Assembly (NCBI RefSeq): GCF_027925025.1
Contig: NZ_AP027058.1
Coordinates: 744,001 to 808,000, forward strand
DNA: 64,000 nt
Direction of reading: 5' to 3'
Source of the DNA: Limnohabitans sp. MORI2
GTDB taxonomy: Bacteria > Pseudomonadota > Gammaproteobacteria > Burkholderiales > Burkholderiaceae_C
Numbering within the stretch: the first letter of the stretch is position 1; every line of letters starts with the position of its first letter. The position numbers and the translations under genes are program-made. The notes below the pieces were generated by a model. The model ran no database searches. It was not told the origin of the DNA and worked only from the letters and a program-made list of their open reading frames with translations. This document shows, piece by piece, positions 5,132-19,826 of this stretch.

Positions 5132-5551
5132 TCAAGAGCACAAGGCTTTGATGTCTGCGGGAACGGGAATCGCTTTGATGCGGTCTGGATCTTCTGGGTG
5201 CTTGATGCAAAACGCGCGGGTTTCAAAGCCTTCGCACAACACCGTGTCGCCACGCATGACGACGTGTTTTTGAATGACGACTTTTTCGCGCCACTCATGG
5301 ATGCTGGTGTGCACCTGAATGCGCTCGCCGTAGGTGGCAGGACGCATGAATTTGGTGTTGATCTCCAAGAGCGGCGTGCCAATGATGCCGGTGGTCTTGA
5401 CCAACTCGCGCCAAGTGGGCACGCCACACTTGACGAAGAAGTTCAAGGACGAGGCATCCATCCACTTGGAGTAGTTGGGGAAGAACACGATGCCTGCGGG
5501 GTCGCAGTCACCGAACATGATTTCAACTTCGTAAACAACGGTTTTGCTCAT
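5132..5551 (-). CDS. hotdog acyl-CoA thioesterase, 4-hydroxybenzoyl-CoA thioesterase-like
   Basis: The start is the ATG at 5551 (MSKTVVYEVEIMFGDCDPAG), giving 139 residues, normal for the family. The FGDCDPAGIVFFPNY segment matches the conserved Asp-containing active-site region of 4-hydroxybenzoyl-CoA thioesterases, in which Asp17 of the Pseudomonas enzyme is the catalytic residue. It hydrolyses an aromatic acyl-CoA to the free acid and CoA in the cytoplasm. Placed after ligase, hydratase, dehydrogenase and thiolase genes, it would release hydroxybenzoate or vanillate at the end of side-chain beta-oxidation. That role is inference from the operon; the fold and active-site motif are seen directly. 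Confidence 0.82.
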   Translation of the reverse strand: MSKTVVYEVEIMFGDCDPAGIVFFPNYSKWMDASSLNFFVKCGVPTWRELVKTTGIIGTPLLEINTKFMRPATYGERIQVHTSIHEWREKVVIQKHVVMRGDTVLCEGFETRAFCIKHPEDPDRIKAIPVPADIKALCS

Positions 5552-5561
5552 CGTGTGTCTT

Positions 5562-6326
5562 TCAGCGTGGGGCCATGCGCAAGGCGCCATCCAAACGGAT
5601 GACCTCGCCATTCAGATGTGTGTTGCTCACGATGTGTGAGGCCAGTTGCGCAAACTCTTCGGGCTTGCCCAAACGAGAAGGGAAGGGGATGCTCGCCGCG
5701 AGTGACTGCTGCACAGGTTCTGGCAATGTTTTCATGAGTGGCGTAGCAAACAAGCCGGGTGCGATGGTGCACACGCGAATGCCGTGTTGGGCCAAGTCGC
5801 GGGCCATGGGCAGGGTCATGCCAGCCACGCCTGCTTTGGAGGCACTGTAGGCTTGTTGGCCCACTTGGCCATCAAAGGCGGCGACAGATGCAGTCCACAC
5901 CATCACGCCGCGTTCACCGTCTTCGAGTGGGTCGAGCTTGGCGGCTGCGGCGGCAAACAAACGGGCTGCGTTGTAGGTGCCCACCAAGTTGACATTCACC
6001 ACTTTCATGAAGTCTTCCAGAGGGGCGGCGTTGCCGTCTTTGCCGACCACGCGCTTGGCGGTACCAATGCCCGCAATTTGCATCAAGATGCGCGCAGGGC
6101 CGTGTGCGGCCGCTGCGGTTTCGATGGCTTGGGCCATGCTCTCGGGGTCTGACACGTTGCACGACACAGCCACGCCACCGATGTCTTTGGCCACGCGTTG
6201 TGCGTTGTCTAAGTTGAGGTCGAGCACCGCGACTTTGGCGCCCAAACGGCCTAGTTCACGTGCGGTGGCTTCACCGAGGCCGGAGCCGCCGCCGGTGACC
6301 AATGCTGCTTGTCCTTGAATGTTCAT
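5562..6326 (-). CDS. SDR-family 3-hydroxyacyl-CoA dehydrogenase
   Basis: This 254-residue classical short-chain dehydrogenase has the nucleotide motif [15 protein letters not shown] at residues 12-26, the cofactor-selecting Asp in VLDLNLDN (favouring NAD), and the catalytic Tyr and Lys in AYSASKAG near residue 155. It resembles the type II 3-hydroxyacyl-CoA dehydrogenases (HSD10 class). In this operon it would oxidise a 3-hydroxy-3-arylpropionyl-CoA to the 3-keto thioester. It follows the thiolase gene by 36 bp and precedes the thioesterase by 10 bp. A role in general fatty-acid oxidation is the main alternative. Confidence 0.85.
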
Positions 6327-11280: not shown

Positions 11281-13077
11281 CTAAGGCGAAGGCTGTTGCG
11301 TGATGGTCTTTTCGATGGCCTGCGCAATTTCGTGAAAACTGATGGGCTTATGCAAAACCTGCACATTCAATTTGGCAAATAAATTGATGTGTGTGGGCGA
11401 TGTGTCCGCTGTGACGATGATGGCCGGAATTTCTTCGTTGTAGCTCTCTCTGATTTTTTCAATCAGCACATCACCTGTTGTGTTGGTTAAACGGAAATCA
11501 CACAAGATGCAGTCAATCTGATCGATGGTTTCAAGCTGACTTTCAAGCTCTTCGGTGTGCTCGGAGAGCACCTGCACATGAGCCCCTTTGCTGGCGAGGG
11601 TGTGTCGGTAAGCCTCTACGATGACAGGGTTGTCCTCGATGACTGCAATCGATTTGCCAGAGAGACTGTGATGTGGGTGAAGGGCAGTGAACGTTGTCTT
11701 TGTGCGTGGCGTCTCTTGCGCATCTTGCGTGATCAAAAAAGGCGTGTTGACCACAAATCGAGCACCTTGACCAATTTCAGAAAACACGTGAATTTCTGCT
11801 CCTATCAAATCGCACAAACGTTTGACGATCGATAAGCCTAGTCCTAGTCCATCGTGCAAGGCGCGGGTTCGATCGGCGCGAAAGAATTGGCTAAAAATTT
11901 GTTGCTGATCGGCGGCGGCGATGCCACATCCTGTGTCTCGCACTTCGATACTTAAACAGTCGAGATGCGTGTCAAAGTGGATGTTGATTTCACCAGCCTC
12001 TGTGTATTGAATGGCGTTGGAGACCAAGTTGCTGAGGATTTGCTGCAATAGCAATTTGTCACCATGCACCACCCAATCGGGTGCATTGGTTTGAAAAACC
12101 AGTCCTTTGCTATGTGCCTTGGTTTCGACGAGATCTCGAATGGTGTAAGCAAGGTCCTCCAGTCGAAAGGGACGTTGGCTGACTTGCATCACATCCGCAT
12201 CAAGTTTGCTGATGTTGAGCAAAGAGTCAAACATGGCATTGAGTGTGGTGATGCTGTTTTTGATTTTTGTGAGCGACTTTTTTTCAAGCGGAGGTAAATT
12301 CTCTGGATTGAAAAGTTCCAGATAAACGTTCACAGCATGCATGGGCTGTCGCAAATCGTGGCTGGCAACAGCAATGAATTTTGATTTGGCGACGTTGGCT
12401 GCTATCGATTGGTCTCGCTCGGTGGCCAGTTCTTGATAGAGCCGCTCGTTACGAAAACGCAGTCTGACTGAGTTTTCAAAAATCTTTGAAAAATTTCTCG
12501 CAATGCTCAGCACCACAATGTAGAGCGATGCGAGGCCGACAGAAAATGGCCAAGGAAAAATATGGACTGACCACAAGACCGTACTGAGTGAGGGAATCAT
12601 GATGGGCAGTGTGAAGGCATAAAACGTAGTGGCGTTCACGCTGTAGGCAAACATGCTTGAGATCATGGCTGCCGTGGTCATGTACACATAGATCATGCGA
12701 TTGACCATTAGCAAATCGGGAGCCATCAAGATCCAACCCAGTCCCCAGCCCACGCCGACGATACCTACAGCCCACGTGACGATGTTTAAATTACGTTTCG
12801 GGTCTTGAATTTTTTCGGCTTCATGCTCAATCCTGAAAATCATCCATGTTCGAATCATGACCATGATGAACATATAGCCTAACCAGAGTTCTAAGTGCGA
12901 GGGCTGAACCTCATCTTTGAACATTGGAATGCAAAGCATGGGTGCCAAGATATTGGCTGTTGTGGCAGAGCGTGCTGCCTTGGTGATGTGCGCTGATTTT
13001 TCTCTGAGTAAGTAGAAGTTGTTGACTTCGTCTTCTAGGAAAAGATCACGAGACTTGGTCTCAGATGGTTGATTCAC
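11281..13077 (-). CDS. hybrid sensor histidine kinase with C-terminal receiver domain
   Basis: The 598 residues start from a GTG at 13077 with AAGG just upstream. Residues about 45-205 hold five or six hydrophobic helices with no large periplasmic domain, so it probably senses a membrane or cytoplasmic signal. The H-box is SHDLRQPMHAV with His240; the N-box is SNLVSNAIQY; the G-boxes are DTGCGI and DGLGLGLSI. A receiver domain follows from about residue 475 with phospho-accepting Asp527 in CDFRL and the conserved Lys in LHKPIS. The NarL-type regulator at 13120-13731 is 42 bp upstream and likely its partner. The signal is unknown. Confidence 0.85.
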   Translation of the reverse strand: MNQPSETKSRDLFLEDEVNNFYLLREKSAHITKAARSATTANILAPMLCIPMFKDEVQPSHLELWLGYMFIMVMIRTWMIFRIEHEAEKIQDPKRNLNIVTWAVGIVGVGWGLGWILMAPDLLMVNRMIYVYMTTAAMISSMFAYSVNATTFYAFTLPIMIPSLSTVLWSVHIFPWPFSVGLASLYIVVLSIARNFSKIFENSVRLRFRNERLYQELATERDQSIAANVAKSKFIAVASHDLRQPMHAVNVYLELFNPENLPPLEKKSLTKIKNSITTLNAMFDSLLNISKLDADVMQVSQRPFRLEDLAYTIRDLVETKAHSKGLVFQTNAPDWVVHGDKLLLQQILSNLVSNAIQYTEAGEINIHFDTHLDCLSIEVRDTGCGIAAADQQQIFSQFFRADRTRALHDGLGLGLSIVKRLCDLIGAEIHVFSEIGQGARFVVNTPFLITQDAQETPRTKTTFTALHPHHSLSGKSIAVIEDNPVIVEAYRHTLASKGAHVQVLSEHTEELESQLETIDQIDCILCDFRLTNTTGDVLIEKIRESYNEEIPAIIVTADTSPTHINLFAKLNVQVLHKPISFHEIAQAIEKTITQQPSP

Positions 13078-13119
13078 TGCCTTGATCCTGTGAAATGGCC
13101 TGTGCTGTGGGCTTGTCCA

Positions 13120-13731
13120 TCAGGGCAAGAGTTTGTGCTTTTGCCCCCTCAGTACAGCTTGCGTTCGATTGAATACGCGAAGCTCTCTGAAGATTTGATT
13201 GATGTGAATCTTCACGGTTTGTTCGCTGATGTCGAGTTGATCCGCAATGATTTTGTTAGGGTGTCCTTGCGCGATCAAATTTAAAACTTCGAGTTGACGC
13301 TGGGTCAATCGAAACTCTTTGGGTTCGCTTGCTTCTGCTGCCCTGGGCTCAGGTGTTGCCAAGTTCATGAGAGGTCGGAGTTTGCGAATCATGAAATCGG
13401 CAGTGCCGTTTTTAGATAGAAACATAGAGGCACCCGCTGACACGGTTTTAGGCTCCCAGCTATGTTCATCGAGGCCTGAAATAGCCACCACTTGTTCTAC
13501 ATTGTCTAGCTCTTTGAATACCTTGATGCCAGCTAAGCCGCTCAGGCCTGGCATGAGGATGTCAAGCAAGATGATCCATTGTTTGTTGGATGAATTGATC
13601 AAATCCAAGCCTTCTTGCACGCTGCTCGCGCTCGCGACATGGACGCCAGCAGGGATAAATTCAGACGCCAATTTTTCGCTCAGTGCATCTCGATACACAG
13701 GATGGTCATCGATGATGAGAAGTGATTTCAT
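13120..13731 (-). CDS. NarL/LuxR-family response regulator
   Basis: This 203-residue protein has a receiver domain (acidic pair D8, D9; phospho-accepting Asp57 in LLDILMPG) and a LuxR-type helix-turn-helix at about residues 140-198 (LTQRQLEVLNLIAQG, then SEQTVKIHINQIF). It is transcribed just before the hybrid kinase gene, so the two form a likely phosphorelay. The receiver domain ends with a Lys-like position in FLSKNGT. Targets are unknown; the nearby aromatic operons and the MDR oxidoreductase upstream are candidates. The start ATG at 13731 has no strong ribosome site. Confidence 0.85.
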   Translation of the reverse strand: MKSLLIIDDHPVYRDALSEKLASEFIPAGVHVASASSVQEGLDLINSSNKQWIILLDILMPGLSGLAGIKVFKELDNVEQVVAISGLDEHSWEPKTVSAGASMFLSKNGTADFMIRKLRPLMNLATPEPRAAEASEPKEFRLTQRQLEVLNLIAQGHPNKIIADQLDISEQTVKIHINQIFRELRVFNRTQAVLRGQKHKLLP

Positions 13732-13803: not shown

Positions 13804-14854
13804 AGATGATCGGGTTCATCTCTTCAGCGGTCAAATCCAAAGCCAGTTTGCCAAACTGCTCGGCGCGCGACATCACATCCAAAGCGGTGTGCACTTGGTC
13901 CATGGGGTAGATGTGGTCAATCACGGGGCGAATGTGGTGTTGCTCGCAAAAGGCCAAGAGGTCTTTGAACTCTTGCAAGTTGCCCAAGGTCGATCCCAAG
14001 ATTTGCAGCTGGCGAATGAAGATGCGGCGCAAGTCAGCAGGCGGTTGGTCGCCACTGGTGGCACCGCAAGTGACCAAGCGACCCCCGCGCACCAATGACT
14101 TCATGGCATCGCCCCACACGGCTTCGCCCACGTTTTCAATCACCACATCCACACCGCGTTTGCCGGTGAAGGCCATGACGCTTTTCACCACATCGTCAGC
14201 GGGTGTATGAATGCCAAGGTCAGCACCCAGGGCTTGGGCGCGTTCGAGCTTGTGCGCATGGCGTGAGGTGACGATGACTTTGGCACCCAAGGCCTTGGCG
14301 ATTTGCAAGGCCGCCACCGACACACCGCCGCCGATGCCAAACACCAACACGGTTTGCCCCGCTTTGACTTGACCTTGTGTGACCACCATGCGCCATGCGG
14401 TGAGGTGGGTCACAGCGAGGGCCGCTGCCTCAAACGGCGTGAGGTAGCTGGGCGCAGGCAGCACGTTGTCCGCGGGCACCACCACGTATTCGGACCACGC
14501 GCCATCTCGGTGTTCGCCCACCAGCGCGATGCGGGTGCACAGCACGTCGTCGCCGCGCTGACAAAACTCGCAGTGCCCGCAGCTGATGCCGGGATGAATC
14601 ACCACGGCATCGCCCACCTGTACATGGGCATGGTCGTCGCAGGCCGCCACATGGCCAAAGCCTTCAATGCCCATGGTTTGGGGCAGCGCGTGGGTAATGC
14701 CTGCGCCGCTGTTGCGCATGTAGAGGTCAACTTGGTTCAAGGTGCTGGCGCGCATGCGAATCAGCACTTCGCCCGGGCGACGCTCGGGTGCGGGGCGTGC
14801 GCCAATTTGCACGACCTCGTTGCCGCCGTGACCGTTGAGATAAATGGCTTTCAT
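13796..14854 (-). CDS. MDR-family zinc-binding oxidoreductase
   Basis: The start chosen is the ATG at 14854 (MKAIYLNGHGGNEVVQIG), giving 352 residues; ATGs at 14881 and 14923 are possible but give non-family N-terminal residues. It has the GroES-like domain, the four structural-zinc cysteines in CGHCEFCQRGDDVLC and the nucleotide motif GIGGGVSVAALQIAKALGA. The usual catalytic-zinc Cys appears absent at the VDLYMRN position, so it may act like the quinone-oxidoreductase branch while retaining the structural zinc. The substrate is unknown. It is divergent from the OmpR-type operon across 163 bp. Confidence 0.78.
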   Translation of the reverse strand: MKAIYLNGHGGNEVVQIGARPAPERRPGEVLIRMRASTLNQVDLYMRNSGAGITHALPQTMGIEGFGHVAACDDHAHVQVGDAVVIHPGISCGHCEFCQRGDDVLCTRIALVGEHRDGAWSEYVVVPADNVLPAPSYLTPFEAAALAVTHLTAWRMVVTQGQVKAGQTVLVFGIGGGVSVAALQIAKALGAKVIVTSRHAHKLERAQALGADLGIHTPADDVVKSVMAFTGKRGVDVVIENVGEAVWGDAMKSLVRGGRLVTCGATSGDQPPADLRRIFIRQLQILGSTLGNLQEFKDLLAFCEQHHIRPVIDHIYPMDQVHTALDVMSRAEQFGKLALDLTAEEMNPIIYN

Positions 14855-14956
14855 GGGGTATCTTTCTTGTACGGATGTCATTTTGGCTGCATCGAACATG
14901 GGCGATGTCAGCTGATGTTGCACTTTATATCTAGTTCTAAAGAATTCGTTTCAATG

Positions 14957-14972
14957 ATGACGTTTTTGTCAT
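14957..14972. promoter_or_regulatory. putative operator ATGAC-N6-GTCAT upstream of OmpR-type regulator
   Basis: A perfect inverted repeat ATGAC-GTTTTT-GTCAT, followed by GT, lies 45 bp before the response-regulator ATG at 15018. The same arms, the same 6-base spacer length and the same following GT recur at 17110-17125 before the TerB-like repeat protein gene. The shared motif suggests control by one regulator, most simply the OmpR-type protein encoded here. Confidence 0.55.
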
Positions 14973-15017
14973 GTGATGAGTTTGGCGATCCGTGAATGAA
15001 CGTATGAGAATCGTGGC

Positions 15018-15725
15018 ATGGAACCATTGGCTGATCGAGTGCGTGTACTGCTCATCGAGGATGAGCTCAAGATTGCAGAGTTCGTGATTGCAGGGCTGAG
15101 CAAAGCGAACTTTGAGGTGAAACATTGCGATGACGGGGAGTCTGGACTTCGCGCTTTTGAAGCCGCAAGCTACGACATCGTGGTGCTCGATGTGATGCTG
15201 CCCAAACTCAACGGTTTGGAGGTGTTGCAAAAAATACGTCAAGCCAATACCGATGTGGGCGTGCTCATGCTCAGTGCCAAGTCAGAATTGGTCGATCGTT
15301 TAAATGGGTTTGAATTGGGCGCAGACGATTACTTGCCCAAACCTTTTTATGTCGAAGAATTGGTGGCTCGGATCAAGGCCCTGTTGCACCGCAAACACCC
15401 AGAGTCTGTGAGTCAAATTGTTTGCAAAGATTTGGTGCTGAATCTGGCCGACCGAACAGCGCACTGGGGTGATGTCAGTGCTGTGTTGAGCCAGCGCGAA
15501 TTTAGCTTGTTGGGATATCTGATGCGCTCACCTGGTCATATCTATTCGCGTCAACAAATTCTTAAATACGTGTGGGGCTTGGACTTTGACCCGGAGACCA
15601 ATGTGGTGGATGTGTGTGTGGGGCGCATCAAACGCAAGCTGGTTCGAAGCCATGGCAAAAAAGAATCGCCGATTGAGTCGGTGCGTGGTGTGGGGTACCG
15701 TCTTAGAACTGAGGCCCTGCAATGA
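15018..15725 (+). CDS. OmpR/PhoB-family response regulator
   Basis: This 235-residue protein has a receiver domain with acidic residues E14, D15 and phospho-accepting Asp58 in VLDVMLP, a Lys in DYLPKPF, and a winged-helix C-terminal DNA-binding domain ending in ESVRGVGYRL. Its stop codon overlaps the kinase start by the ATGA arrangement at 15722, so the pair is translationally coupled. An inverted repeat lies upstream (14957-14972), which could be an autoregulatory site. It resembles QseB/TctD-like regulators, but the specific regulon is unknown. Confidence 0.87.
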   Translation: MEPLADRVRVLLIEDELKIAEFVIAGLSKANFEVKHCDDGESGLRAFEAASYDIVVLDVMLPKLNGLEVLQKIRQANTDVGVLMLSAKSELVDRLNGFELGADDYLPKPFYVEELVARIKALLHRKHPESVSQIVCKDLVLNLADRTAHWGDVSAVLSQREFSLLGYLMRSPGHIYSRQQILKYVWGLDFDPETNVVDVCVGRIKRKLVRSHGKKESPIESVRGVGYRLRTEALQ

Positions 15726-17104
15726 AAAAATCGTTTCGCCTATATCTGTTCATTCAAATCATTGTTGCCACTGCGCTCATCATCGTGGCCAATCGTTATG
15801 TCGCCCAATATTTTTTGGGCGATCAAATGGAAGCTCGCGCACATCAAGAAATGGCCCGTGTGGCCAAGAATTGCAGCACCAGTTTGCAAAACGAACACCA
15901 ATGGCGAGACTGTGCGAGAGGTCCCGACATAGGGCAAGTTTTATCGCCCTTGGTTGATTTTTTTGAGCTCTGTTCGCCGCGCCTCAATACCGATGCGGTT
16001 GCTTGCAATGTGGTGAAAGGGTTGCCAATCACATGGCAACCCTTCAAGTCGATCGATGATTCGATGGTGAGAGGCTCTGTGGTGATCAATCGCACCACTT
16101 GGTTTGTCATGAAAGATGCAGCGAATCCTGCGTCACCCGTGGTGATGCTCGCAGATGCTGATCTGGGGCTTTATCTGCAGAGGTTGTGGGAGTTGCGTGA
16201 TCGTAACTTGATTTATGTATTGCCTACGATCGTGTTGCTGTTGTTCGTGTTGACGGCGTACATGGTCTATGTGGTGATGCGCCCCATTCGCCTCATGGAA
16301 GAAACTTTATCGACGCTGGATTTCAAAAATATCCATGAAAAGACAGAGATTCAAACACCGTATGTTGAGTTTCAAAAACTCGCCAAGGTTTACCGCGATT
16401 TGCTCAAGCGCTTGGATGCGAGTTATGAGAACGCCAAACGATTTGCATCAGATGCTGCACATGAGTTGCGAACCCCATTGAGCATTTTGCGTGGCAATGT
16501 AGAACGCTTGATTCCAGAAATGCCCAATGGGTCTTCTCATCAGATGTATCTCCAAAATTTGGGCGATGAGGTGGATCGTCTGATCTTGATCACGGAAAAG
16601 CTATTGATGTTGTCCCGAGCTGATAGCAACAGTTTGACGCTGGATATTGAGCAAGTTGACCTAAGTGGCTTGTTGAATGATTTGATTGAAGATGCAGAAT
16701 CTTTTTACACACACATCAAGTTCATCAAGGATATTCAAGAAGGTGTTGTATGGCCCTGTGACCGCTCGTTGATCGAGCAACTCATCAACAACCTTTATTC
16801 CAACGCCATCAAATACAACTTCAGTCACAGCGGATGGATTGAGTTCAGGTTAAGCGCGACAGCCCAAGAGGTGAAGTTGGTTGTGATGAATTCGAGCTCT
16901 GACATCTCAGCCAATCTTTCTGAAAAAGCATTTGAGCGTTTTTACAGAGGGGATGCTTCGCGTACGCGTCGTTCTGTCGATGGATTGGGTTTGGGCTTGA
17001 GCATCTGCAGAGAAATCGTGCATGCGCATGGCGGGCTCATTACATTGGAAACCCCATCTCCTTACGTCGTGTCATTAGTAGTGTCGTTGCCTACTAATTT
17101 ATAA
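15722..17104 (+). CDS. sensor histidine kinase of OmpR-type pair
   Basis: This 460-residue kinase has two membrane helices, about residues 6-28 and 163-187, flanking a periplasmic domain of roughly 135 residues. That domain has four cysteines (around residues 50, 64, 84 and 95), which could form disulfides. A HAMP-like linker follows, then the H-box FASDAAHELRTPL with His247, the N-box INNLYSNAIKYN and the G-box DGLGLGLSIC. It partners the regulator overlapping it by 4 bp. The periplasmic domain is not one I recognise, so the signal is unknown. The downstream gene begins 91 bp later with its own copy of the inverted repeat. Confidence 0.85.
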   Translation: MKKSFRLYLFIQIIVATALIIVANRYVAQYFLGDQMEARAHQEMARVAKNCSTSLQNEHQWRDCARGPDIGQVLSPLVDFFELCSPRLNTDAVACNVVKGLPITWQPFKSIDDSMVRGSVVINRTTWFVMKDAANPASPVVMLADADLGLYLQRLWELRDRNLIYVLPTIVLLLFVLTAYMVYVVMRPIRLMEETLSTLDFKNIHEKTEIQTPYVEFQKLAKVYRDLLKRLDASYENAKRFASDAAHELRTPLSILRGNVERLIPEMPNGSSHQMYLQNLGDEVDRLILITEKLLMLSRADSNSLTLDIEQVDLSGLLNDLIEDAESFYTHIKFIKDIQEGVVWPCDRSLIEQLINNLYSNAIKYNFSHSGWIEFRLSATAQEVKLVVMNSSSDISANLSEKAFERFYRGDASRTRRSVDGLGLGLSICREIVHAHGGLITLETPSPYVVSLVVSLPTNL

Positions 17105-17109
17105 AATCG

Positions 17110-17125
17110 ATGACAAATACGTCAT
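17110..17125. promoter_or_regulatory. putative operator ATGAC-N6-GTCAT upstream of TerB-like repeat gene
   Basis: This is a perfect inverted repeat ATGAC-AAATAC-GTCAT followed by GT, 70 bp before the ATG at 17196. It matches the site at 14957-14972 in arms, spacing and following dinucleotide. It begins 6 bp after the kinase stop codon. Confidence 0.55.
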
Positions 17126-17195
17126 GTATACCAGCTTGCAGCTGAAATAACAGAACTGTCACCCAAGAAAAGTCTGCGGTTCATTACCGTTAGGC

Positions 17196-19106
17196 ATGGG
17201 CCTGAGTCAAGCTGTCACCACCAATTCAGATGTTGCGGTCAACGATACCGTTGATCCAAGGGATGGTTTCGCCTCGATTAAGTTGACACCGCCTTTGGTG
17301 CTCACCATTTCGCTGATGTTCATCATTGCCAGCGATGGTCATGTGGATGATGCTGAAAGCAGTCAAATTCAATCGGTCATTGGTCAAAACGAAGAGCTGG
17401 TTCGTTTTGCATCGACTTATGTGCGTGCTGTCTCGCTGAAAGAATTTTTGTTGCGCGCCCCTCATGGGCTCAGTTTGCGCGATAAGTTTTGCGTTCTCAG
17501 CAATGTGTGTGACGCCATGTTTGCCGATGGCATGGTGCATGAGATTGAGCAAAAGACCTTGCATCTGCTACAGGCTGCATTTGGTATCTCAGCGAAAGAT
17601 TTTTCGCGCCATCTAGACACGTTAAAGCTGAAAAACGACAGGACGGTGCTCGGTGATTTTCGACTGACTGCTTCCCATGCGTCGATGACGCCTCACCTAG
17701 CACTTGCAGCCTCGGTGCTGTACATGATGAGTGCAGATGGCAGCATTGACAAGCACGAAATCGGTCGACTTGAGACCTTGGTCGCCGAGTATGAGGGCTT
17801 GCAAAAACTCGCTGTGGCCTATGTGCGCAAAACAAAGCGTGAGAGATTTATCCAAGAGGCTGCTTATGCCTTGACCGAGGAACAGAAGGCTTTCATTCTT
17901 TTGAATGTGTATGACACCATGACTTCAGATGGTGTGATTGCAGTCGTTGAAGACAAAATTTTTTCAGCCTTGCAAAAAGCGTTTGGGGTAGATGACCTCG
18001 AGTTCACAGCGCACGTTCAGGTCTTGGAGGATAAAAATTTCAAACCCTTTGATCTGAGAAAAGTCAATGTTGATCATCTGTTTGAGATGGTTGAACGTGA
18101 GCAAATGATGTTGCATGCCAAAGACAGTGACTCGGCGCATGCTTTACTGGGTGAGATGGTGTCGCGGACGATTCAAGACAATGTCTCAAACGTCAAGCAA
18201 GATCTAGGCGCGTCTGCCAATGTGATTCAGATCCAAACGAATGCCATTGATGAACGCAATCTACAAAAAATAGATGCGGCCAATGATGCGAGTCACCGTG
18301 AGCGTTTGGCTGACGAGCAGATGGACGCCAACCGACAAAAACTAGACGATTCCAATCGCGAGCAACACCGAGAGCAGTTGCCTCAAGATGTCATGGATGC
18401 GGCTCGAGTTCGGCTACCTGAAGACAACCAGGGTGCTAACCATCAAAAATTGGCACAGTCTGATGGTGAGGCGAATCAGCAAACACTGCCAGTCGAGTTA
18501 CGCATCGACCATCTGCATGAAGACATTGAAGAGCTGCACGGGCAGTTGACAGAATTTGAGTCAAAGAATCGCAGCTGGCTCAACATGGGCAAGATTTTTC
18601 AGCAAGAAGAAGAGCGCAATCGCCAAAAGCTAGCGCAAGAATTTGAGATTGAAAATTTCCAAAAAATTCAAAACCATTCAACGCAAATCAATCGACAGAA
18701 AATTGGGTCAGATTCAGCGTTGAAGGAAATGCCAGGGCCCGTTGGGTTCGACCCTGCAGACGCGCCGTCACACGACCAAGATCATGTCTCATCAGGACTT
18801 CTGTCCAATGCAGAGGTCATCGATACGTTGCATGGCGTTAATTCAGACGCTGGTCATGGTCATGTGACCTCACAGCCTTTACGAGGGAATGGCTTTGTCT
18901 ACGAAGGTCGTGTTCTAGACTTCCCACAAAGCCGATACAGGGTTTCACTCAAAGAGTGTTTGTTGGCCGTTGCGCTGACGGTTTGCGTGTCGAATTTAGG
19001 CGCGATGAAACAAGATTCCCGCCGTGTCAATGCGGGTGTCCTCCAAAAGTTAGAGTCCACCACCACTGTGCATGAGGCAGGAGCCGTTTTGTCGGTAGGC
19101 CCCTGA
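17196..19106 (+). CDS. TerB-like domain protein with 12-residue tandem repeats and C-terminal membrane segment
   Basis: I do not recognise this 636-residue protein as a named gene. Residues about 30-290 hold two similar helical modules, each with two acidic loop motifs of TerB/DUF533-like type: ASDGHVDDAE and FADGMVHEIE, then SADGSIDKHE and TSDGVIAVVE. Such loops are associated with metal binding in TerB-like proteins. Residues 354-437 contain seven exact-length 12-residue repeats and 474-509 three more, of pattern x-N-x-Q-K-L plus six variable residues, rich in Gln, Asn, Asp and Arg. Near residues 585-605 a hydrophobic segment (ECLLAVALTVCVSNLGAM) could anchor it in the membrane. The gene follows a two-component pair and shares its upstream motif. 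Its stop abuts the convergent livF stop with no base between. Function unknown. Confidence 0.7.
   Translation: MGLSQAVTTNSDVAVNDTVDPRDGFASIKLTPPLVLTISLMFIIASDGHVDDAESSQIQSVIGQNEELVRFASTYVRAVSLKEFLLRAPHGLSLRDKFCVLSNVCDAMFADGMVHEIEQKTLHLLQAAFGISAKDFSRHLDTLKLKNDRTVLGDFRLTASHASMTPHLALAASVLYMMSADGSIDKHEIGRLETLVAEYEGLQKLAVAYVRKTKRERFIQEAAYALTEEQKAFILLNVYDTMTSDGVIAVVEDKIFSALQKAFGVDDLEFTAHVQVLEDKNFKPFDLRKVNVDHLFEMVEREQMMLHAKDSDSAHALLGEMVSRTIQDNVSNVKQDLGASANVIQIQTNAIDERNLQKIDAANDASHRERLADEQMDANRQKLDDSNREQHREQLPQDVMDAARVRLPEDNQGANHQKLAQSDGEANQQTLPVELRIDHLHEDIEELHGQLTEFESKNRSWLNMGKIFQQEEERNRQKLAQEFEIENFQKIQNHSTQINRQKIGSDSALKEMPGPVGFDPADAPSHDQDHVSSGLLSNAEVIDTLHGVNSDAGHGHVTSQPLRGNGFVYEGRVLDFPQSRYRVSLKECLLAVALTVCVSNLGAMKQDSRRVNAGVLQKLESTTTVHEAGAVLSVGP
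18255..18506 (+). repeat. seven tandem 36 bp units encoding a 12-residue repeat
   Basis: Seven consecutive 12-codon units encode RNLQKIDAANDA, SHRERLADEQMD, ANRQKLDDSNRE, QHREQLPQDVMD, AARVRLPEDNQG, ANHQKLAQSDGE and ANQQTLPVELRI. A hydrophobic Leu or Ile is fixed at position 6 and Asn or His is common at position 2. The DNA copies have diverged but no unit has gained or lost a codon, so the 12-residue period has been kept. Confidence 0.75.
18615..18722 (+). repeat. three further copies of the 12-residue repeat
   Basis: RNRQKLAQEFEI, ENFQKIQNHSTQ and INRQKIGSDSAL continue the same 12-residue pattern in the same protein after a 36-residue non-repeat linker. The core N-x-Q-K-(L/I) is strictest here. 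Confidence 0.7.
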
Positions 19107-19826
19107 TTAAACGCCCAAATAACTCGGCAGCGCTGGGTCGTGCAACATGTCTTGCGCATCACCTTGCATGACCACCAAGCCTTTTTGCAGCACCAACGCA
19201 CGGTTGCTGCGCGACAGCACCTTGTGCCAATCGCGGTCCACGATGAGCACGGCCAGGCCGCTGGCTTTGATCTCGTCAATCACGCGCCAAATGTCGGCCA
19301 CGATGAGTGGGGCCAAACCTTCGGTGGCTTCGTCCAAGATGATGAGGTCGGGGTGCGTCATCAGCGCGCGACCAATGGAGAGCATTTGCTGCTCGCCGCC
19401 TGAGAGCTGGCTGCCCAAGTTGGTCAAGCGTTCGGCCAAGCGAGGGAAGGTGTGCAACACGCGCTCCAGCGTCCAGTCACTGCGGTCGTCACGACCACGG
19501 CGCGCGGCCATGACCAAGTTCTCGCGCACGCTCAGGTTGCCAAACACGCCACGACCTTCTGGCACATAGGCCACGCCCATGCGCGCCACTTCATGCGGGC
19601 GTGCTTTGGAAATGTCGTGACCAAACAAATGAATGTGCCCATCGCGTTGATGCACATGGCCGAGCAAGCTGCGAATGAGTGTGCTCTTGCCCATGCCGTT
19701 GCGGCCCAACAGGCCCACGGTTTCGCCTTTGCGAATATCAAGGCTCACGCCATGCAGCACATGGCTGCTGTCGTACCACGCATGCACGTCTTGGGCTTGC
19801 AGAATGATTTCGGAACTGACGGTCAT
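19107..19826 (-). CDS. ABC transporter ATPase, LivF-like (second Liv operon)
   Basis: This 239-residue LivF-class ATPase has Walker A GRNGMGKST near residue 42, signature LSGGEQQML near 140 and Walker B LIILDEATEGLAP near 165. The start codon shares one base with the upstream livG stop, so translation is coupled. It is the last gene of an importer operon that follows benzoate-activation genes, so benzoate or a related aromatic acid is the likely ligand. The stop codon directly abuts the stop of the convergent TerB-like gene. Confidence 0.88.
   Translation of the reverse strand: MTVSSEIILQAQDVHAWYDSSHVLHGVSLDIRKGETVGLLGRNGMGKSTLIRSLLGHVHQRDGHIHLFGHDISKARPHEVARMGVAYVPEGRGVFGNLSVRENLVMAARRGRDDRSDWTLERVLHTFPRLAERLTNLGSQLSGGEQQMLSIGRALMTHPDLIILDEATEGLAPLIVADIWRVIDEIKASGLAVLIVDRDWHKVLSRSNRALVLQKGLVVMQGDAQDMLHDPALPSYLGV

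Follow-up and report, generated by a model that had tools for sequence, protein, structure and literature searches.

The window, by which we mean the whole 64-kb stretch of DNA analysed, comes from a freshwater bacterium and contains an operon made up of the genes for an OmpR-family response regulator (RR) and a membrane histidine kinase (HK), followed on the same strand by the gene for a TerB-like repeat protein (Table 1). The first-pass annotation had placed two copies of the inverted repeat ATGAC-N6-GTCAT here, one upstream of the RR gene and one upstream of the TerB-like gene, and both 16-mers lie exactly where it located them. It had seen no third copy. This holds for exact copies, of which the window has these two only, but a degenerate box in the same gap as the second site was overlooked.

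Table 1. Genes, boxes and candidate promoter elements at the locus (window coordinates)
Feature	Coordinates	Strand	Basis
RR-promoter box ATGACGTTTTTGTCAT (on the - strand, ATGACAAAAACGTCAT)	14957..14972	.	motif scan
GAGAAT, possible -10 element, 33 bp past the RR box	15006..15011	+	inferred by inspection
OmpR-family response regulator, 235 aa, putative phospho-acceptor D58	15018..15725	+	PF00072, PF00486; D58 by inspection
Membrane histidine kinase, 460 aa	15722..17104	+	PF00512, PF02518; membrane topology by inspection
Distal TerB-promoter box ATGACAAATACGTCAT, 86 bp upstream of the ATG	17110..17125	.	motif scan
Proximal TerB-promoter box ATAACAGAACTGTCAC, degenerate, ATG 49 bp downstream	17147..17162	.	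promoter comparison
CATTAC within CATTACCGT, possible -10 element of a near-leaderless transcript	17182..17187	+	inferred from the last 33 bp upstream
TerB-like repeat protein, 636 aa, two TerB domains (residues ~27-285)	17196..19106	+	PF05099

Domain content of the encoded proteins

By Pfam, RR consists of a receiver and a winged-helix domain, and HK has HisKA and HATPase domains. The best of 99 NCBIfam models for RR is TIGR01387 (heavy-metal response regulator, cztR_silR_copR), which scores 196 bits against a curated cut-off of 279.2, and the best model for HK is TIGR01386 (heavy-metal sensor kinase), with 180.1 bits against 292.55; both proteins thus score below the membership cut-offs of these families. 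RR matches many OmpR-family chains in the PDB. It is 38% identical to E. coli CusR and, by database match, 41.6% identical over 96% of the query to C. metallidurans CzcR, an annotated heavy-metal response regulator concerned with heavy-metal homeostasis. Cupriavidus, which is also the host of the regulator AgrR discussed below, presumably belongs to the same order as the source organism, the Burkholderiales.

In HK, H247 is invariant in all 21 rows of alignment A2 as well as in the 17 of those rows that form alignment A3. Four cysteines (C51, C64, C84 and C95) lie in the presumed periplasmic sensor region. All four are invariant in the 17 sequences of A3, which were chosen from the 21 of A2, and across the full 21 only C84 and C95 are, the kinases of L083, L084, L086 and L087 having neither of the other two. 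PADLOC returned one weak match for HK, in its ATPase part (E 0.00036). Elsewhere in the window, a hybrid kinase and a LuxR-type regulator are encoded on the opposite strand (11281-13731), and no exact box was found there.

The TerB-like protein matches PF05099 with 45.1 bits (cut-off 24.4) over two stretches, which makes it a member of this Pfam family, and has a hydrophobic segment at residues 583-601. Each of the 18 TerB-like proteins in alignment A1 contains two TerB domains, and in each of them N-x-Q words follow one another at a distance of exactly 12 residues at least once; the window protein has three such 12-residue steps, and other N-x-Q spacings occur too. A hydrophobic segment on the C-terminal side (at least 1.5 on the Kyte-Doolittle scale) is present in the window protein, in 10/10 relatives whose genes are linked to the regulator and in 4/7 unlinked ones. 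A sequence search of the PDB with A1 gave no match at E 0.1, and in the literature examined we found no function for the family that combines tandem TerB domains with 12-residue repeats. A defence-system reading was set aside, since PADLOC gave no match for the TerB-like protein or for the cysteine-rich protein described below. The TerB-like protein can be likened to DjlA of E. coli, which is membrane-anchored with a cytoplasmic TerB-like domain and, when overproduced, activates the Rcs phosphorelay; DjlA differs in having a J domain and, in the layout described, an N-terminal anchor (PMC11709261, excerpt).

Two side observations concern this family. The TerB-like protein of L015 carries up to 13 N-x-Q words in one 12-residue register, with one extra word off register. 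The metagenome-derived TerB-gene records L185 and L209 are titled Bordetella and Rickettsia, and look like mislabelled bins.

Conservation and position of the boxes

That the two exact repeats are real and not a product of chance is confirmed: the shuffled window yields 0.03 exact boxes on average, and none of 100 shuffles reaches two. Across the 2,649,037-bp genome, of which the window covers bases 744001-808000, the exact word occurs eight times per strand, against 0 for a reversed-pattern control. The six copies outside the window all lie within ORFs of 340-892 aa (called mechanically), and the whole-genome scan found no exact box at any other promoter; frequent occurrence at unrelated promoters, named at first pass as grounds for doubt, is therefore not seen in this genome. 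With respect to a metal-resistance regulon, the scan, which covers exact and not degenerate sites, places the intergenic boxes of the genome at the RR-HK-TerB locus only.

Two details of the original description did not survive closer comparison. The spacers had been said to differ, but after reverse-complementing site 1 to ATGACAAAAACGTCAT, 15 of its 16 bases are identical to those of site 2 (ATGACAAATACGTCAT), so the sites are near-copies in opposite orientation and their spacers agree. The GT after each site had been counted as a shared feature; it directly follows the box in 1/12 RR promoters and 2/20 TerB promoters, with the window counted in each set. Since it is not conserved, the GT lies outside the site and its presence at both is incidental.

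The motif does recur upstream of orthologous pairs, which the first-pass annotation had proposed as a check. An RR homologue search at E 1e-45 gave 41 matches in 35 of 61 genus genomes, 30 of them given as loci (window included). Among the close RR loci (at least 273 bits, n=14 including the window), 12 have TGAC-N6-GTCA within 300 bp upstream; the two without an exact upstream box are L039, which has ATTACGAATTTGTCAT by inspection, and L049. Among the more distant RR loci (234-258 bits, n=16), the exact box is upstream in two and absent from that position in 14, and it follows HK in four; in one of the 16, L055, the contig ends short of the region after HK. Of 20 regions fetched, nine have a complete RR-HK-TerB arrangement, two further contigs end just past the kinase and have the boxes, and nine have no TerB-like gene there, L079, whose contig ends after the kinase, among them. 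Since some distant RR-HK pairs are boxed without an adjacent TerB gene, it is the regulator, and not TerB, that the box goes with. The expectation that the motif would stay with both regulator and TerB homologues is thus borne out for the regulator but not throughout for TerB.

The distant pairs with a box 3' of the kinase are L085, L059, L064 and L066, and in L085 this box precedes a gene (5391-6236) for 281 aa without a Pfam match. In L086 and L087, distant RR-HK pairs with an upstream box precede a secreted-looking gene, which in L087 encodes a MipA-family protein. We also considered an ADH-like gene as a divergent target of the RR-promoter box. This is not favoured, because in the nine complete cassettes of relatives the pair has no ADH-like ORF next to it; a distant ADH-like ORF (25-26% identity) adjoins RR in L083 and L084, and there is no box there.

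At the TerB promoters we compared 22 regulator-linked cases, some of them near-copies, comprising the window, 18 loci, L069, L070 and L245. L178 and L180 were counted as linked, with no HK ORF called on their short upstream ends (the 3' end of HK in L180 was recognised by eye), and L193, in which the TerB ORF is cut off and the promoter resembles that of L183, was omitted. In all 22, a box lies 48 to 50 bp before the ATG. Compared with ATGAC-N6-GTCAY, this proximal box has no mismatch in 15 promoters, one in five (the window, with ATAACAGAACTGTCAC, among these) and two in two; with equal base frequencies and five permitted offsets, a match with one mismatch or none has a random expectation of 0.00025 in each promoter. 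A distal box lies at -75/-76 in 18/22; in L179, L183 and L208 its position is -81/-82, and the window has it at -86. It shows no mismatch in 17 promoters, one in two and two in three (L189, L191 and L192); it was taken as the best upstream match within a range, and is hence weaker evidence than the proximal box. The second site of the first-pass annotation is this distal box, the position-locked proximal one having been overlooked. An argument from helical phase for the distal box, on the ground that the shift from -76 to -86 is close to one turn, loses force with the three promoters at -81/-82 and was not retained.

By contrast, none of 39 unlinked TerB-like promoters has a box with fewer than three mismatches at -47 to -51; anywhere within 200 bp, four have one with two mismatches and none has one with fewer; about half of this control set are short single-domain TerB proteins, the start codons are ORF guesses, and four loci without a called TerB ORF are omitted. 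In a tree of the TerB proteins, linked and unlinked sequences cluster in such a way that the label needs only two changes. The contrast therefore amounts to few independent events, and a Fisher value of 8e-12 (15/17 versus 0/39), which ignores shared descent, overstates it. A stronger argument than this contrast is the fixed position of the box amid differing flanks.

Scans for the tandem arrangement point to the same promoters. In 84 genus genomes, tandem boxes ending in TGTCACC occur at 15 places in 14 genomes (one locus is spread over two contigs). At every place either a TerB-like gene comes next or the boxes stand after HK where the contig ends, and the control gave 0. A looser tandem scan of the same 84 genomes gave 38 forward places in 22 genomes, against two in the reversed control. 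By coordinates, 31 of these lie at promoters of RR, TerB or the cysteine-rich protein or behind a kinase at a contig end, and correspond to 29 promoters, since G009 and G101 each count one twice; the other seven lie elsewhere, one of them being a single stray match in the own genome.

This regularity bears on whether the repeats work as RNA or DNA hairpins, such as a terminator or attenuator, and not as protein sites. They are inverted repeats, and the 14850-19160 region holds eight terminator-like sites versus 4.8 in shuffles, but none of the eight overlaps a box, the arms are just 5 bp around 6 nt and there is no Rfam match. Moreover, the tandem register and the positions relative to the ATG are conserved, and in characterised relatives the same word is a protein site (PMC11195947 and PMC7380067, excerpts). 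We therefore regard a hairpin function as highly improbable and treat the boxes as candidate protein-binding sites.

No sigma-70 consensus promoter was found at either site, the 14850-19160 region holding two such promoters versus 4.4 in shuffles. Many of the RR promoters inspected have a GARAAT-like word 32-34 bp past the box, and words resembling CATTAC are found just upstream of the TerB ATG in relatives.

A cysteine-rich protein and other linked systems

Seven relatives, chosen because they carry the cassette and are well assembled, have 53 exact sites between them. The cassette accounts for 14; of the remaining 39, 29 lie within ORFs of at least 200 aa, and five of the other ten precede a single gene family. 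Its products are cysteine-rich proteins of about 178 aa that start with M..INxRNCQPCTACCEGWL and have no Pfam or NCBIfam match; their CxxCxxCC pattern recalls what we take to be the YkgJ type. The gene is present in 10/84 genus genomes, and was not found in the own genome at E 1e-15. Its promoters carry tandem boxes at about -77 and -50 in nine of the ten genomes (eight measured, L160 by reading), with single mismatches in L162, L165 and L168, and in these nine boxed relatives the gene lies at an unlinked locus. In the tenth genome, G097, the gene has no box. The first-pass proposal of an operator in front of the regulator's own operon and the TerB-like gene thus came through both sequence tests, but the regulon it drew was incomplete, as the cysteine-rich protein is a candidate target in nine relatives; as an interpretation it is partly supported.

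The same genomes bear on the possibility that another regulator binds the boxes and controls both units, with the adjacent RR a passenger of that regulon. Binding by a relative is conceivable, since in E. coli one DNA sequence is recognised by both CusR and HprR (PMC8249747, excerpt), and a first look at the own genome scored 33 RR candidates. Against this stand the confinement of the exact intergenic sites of the own genome to the RR-HK-TerB locus and the boxes that more distant RR-HK pairs also carry beside themselves. In addition, a close RR is present in nine of the ten genomes with the cysteine-rich protein, and the exception, G097, in which none was found at E 1e-60 (the only threshold here), is the one without a box at that gene. 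We consider control by another regulator quite improbable and retain the adjacent RR as the likely ligand of the boxes.

Some TerB-like genes adjoin a different kind of two-component system. In G097 (locus L241) the order is kinase (641 aa), regulator, TerB-like gene and cysteine-rich protein. Kinases of 637-638 aa adjoin TerB-like genes in L195 and L206, the L206 kinase having a 7TMR-DISMED2 domain and there being an OmpR-type regulator too. In L206, L195 and L241 the TerB-like repeat proteins may form a second class, with a two-component system of another kind next to them; L195 and L241 are assigned by length and resemblance. In L169 (G072), the gene for the cysteine-rich protein is apparently internally deleted, and its tandem-box promoter is intact.

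Known relatives and a proposed mechanism

At the level of sequence, the geometry of the box is that of the sites of E. coli CusR and Cupriavidus AgrR. Palindromic 16-bp boxes of the ATGAC/ATKACA type, as expected of heavy-metal response regulators at their own and at a target promoter, are present here as words only. The cusR-cusC gap of E. coli K-12 contains AAAATGACAATTTTGTCATTTT, with one exact TGAC-N6-GTCA, and this is the published CusR site (PMC11195947, excerpt). The site of CusR (ATGACAANNTTGTCAT) lies, as appears to be the case for RR, between its own operon and its target, which is adjacent. CusR differs in that the target is the divergent efflux operon cusCFBA, in that there is no tandem layout, and in its other sensor and effectors.

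AgrR of C. metallidurans, like RR an OmpR-type regulator, binds ATKACANNNNTGTMAT, a 16-bp inverted repeat that includes ATGACANNNNTGTCAT and whose centre lies at -43.5 in the control region of AgrR itself. According to excerpts of the same source, AgrR is active in its unphosphorylated form, regulates itself positively and is a type II activator at promoters whose -35 element is poor or missing; some of its operators have extra half-sites (PMC7380067). It differs in serving silver resistance and in binding the promoters of copper and zinc genes (PMC7380067, excerpt), whereas the candidate targets here are the RR-HK pair, the TerB-like protein and, in relatives, the cysteine-rich protein.

On these grounds we propose, at a probability of roughly 0.78, that the adjacent OmpR-family RR binds the ATGAC-N6-GTCAT boxes and controls its own operon and the gene for the TerB-like protein. 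The membrane kinase would sense an envelope signal and phosphorylate RR. The conserved cysteines of its sensor region suggest a signal that is perhaps redox or metal. HprR, which shares the CusR site, responds to hydrogen peroxide (PMC8249747, excerpt), so redox is as conceivable a signal as metal. An RR dimer would then bind palindromes of the ATGAC-N6-GTCAT type, the single box at the rr-hk promoter providing autoregulation and the two tandem boxes, the position-locked proximal one and the distal one, serving the TerB-like gene. The centre of the proximal box is 41.5 bp upstream of the TerB ATG. Given this position and the lack of a sigma-70 consensus, transcription would start near the ATG if RR acts like AgrR, and the proximal box would in that case be the contact point with RNA polymerase for a type II activator. 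The output would be a protein with two TerB domains, a region of 12-residue repeats and a hydrophobic segment that possibly anchors it, and in relatives a further output would be the cysteine-rich partner from an unlinked locus.

RR could instead bind the boxes and mainly repress, the TerB-like gene remaining off until the signal changes the state of RR. Such behaviour is described for CusR, which represses cusCFBA without inducer, unphosphorylated CusR acting on its single target (PMC8249747, excerpt). The lock of the proximal box at -48 to -50, together with the lack of a consensus -35/-10 pair, fits activation instead, and AgrR activates from a similar position (PMC7380067, excerpt). We therefore think a mainly repressive role unlikely and favour activation by RR.

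A broader reading, which we offer tentatively and hold to be possible but doubtful, is that the TerB-repeat protein and the cysteine-rich protein form a new envelope-stress effector module that has come under two-component systems of two unrelated kinds, the CusR-type pair, whose tandem boxes stand at about -76 and -49, and the pair whose kinase has about 640 aa. Upon periplasmic thiol or metal disturbance, the TerB proteins, made from near-leaderless transcripts, would use their 12-residue NxQ repeats to assemble into a fibre or solenoid tethered to the membrane. Among the literature matches listed, no paper connects these parts, which in itself does not prove that none exists.

The proposed system would constitute a small, testable regulon in which a single regulator acts through a defined 16-bp site on two or three target promoters of fixed geometry. 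Its inducing signal, once found, would put a condition on TerB-repeat proteins. If the proposal is true, operators of the CusR/AgrR type serve effectors besides metal pumps in freshwater Burkholderiales.
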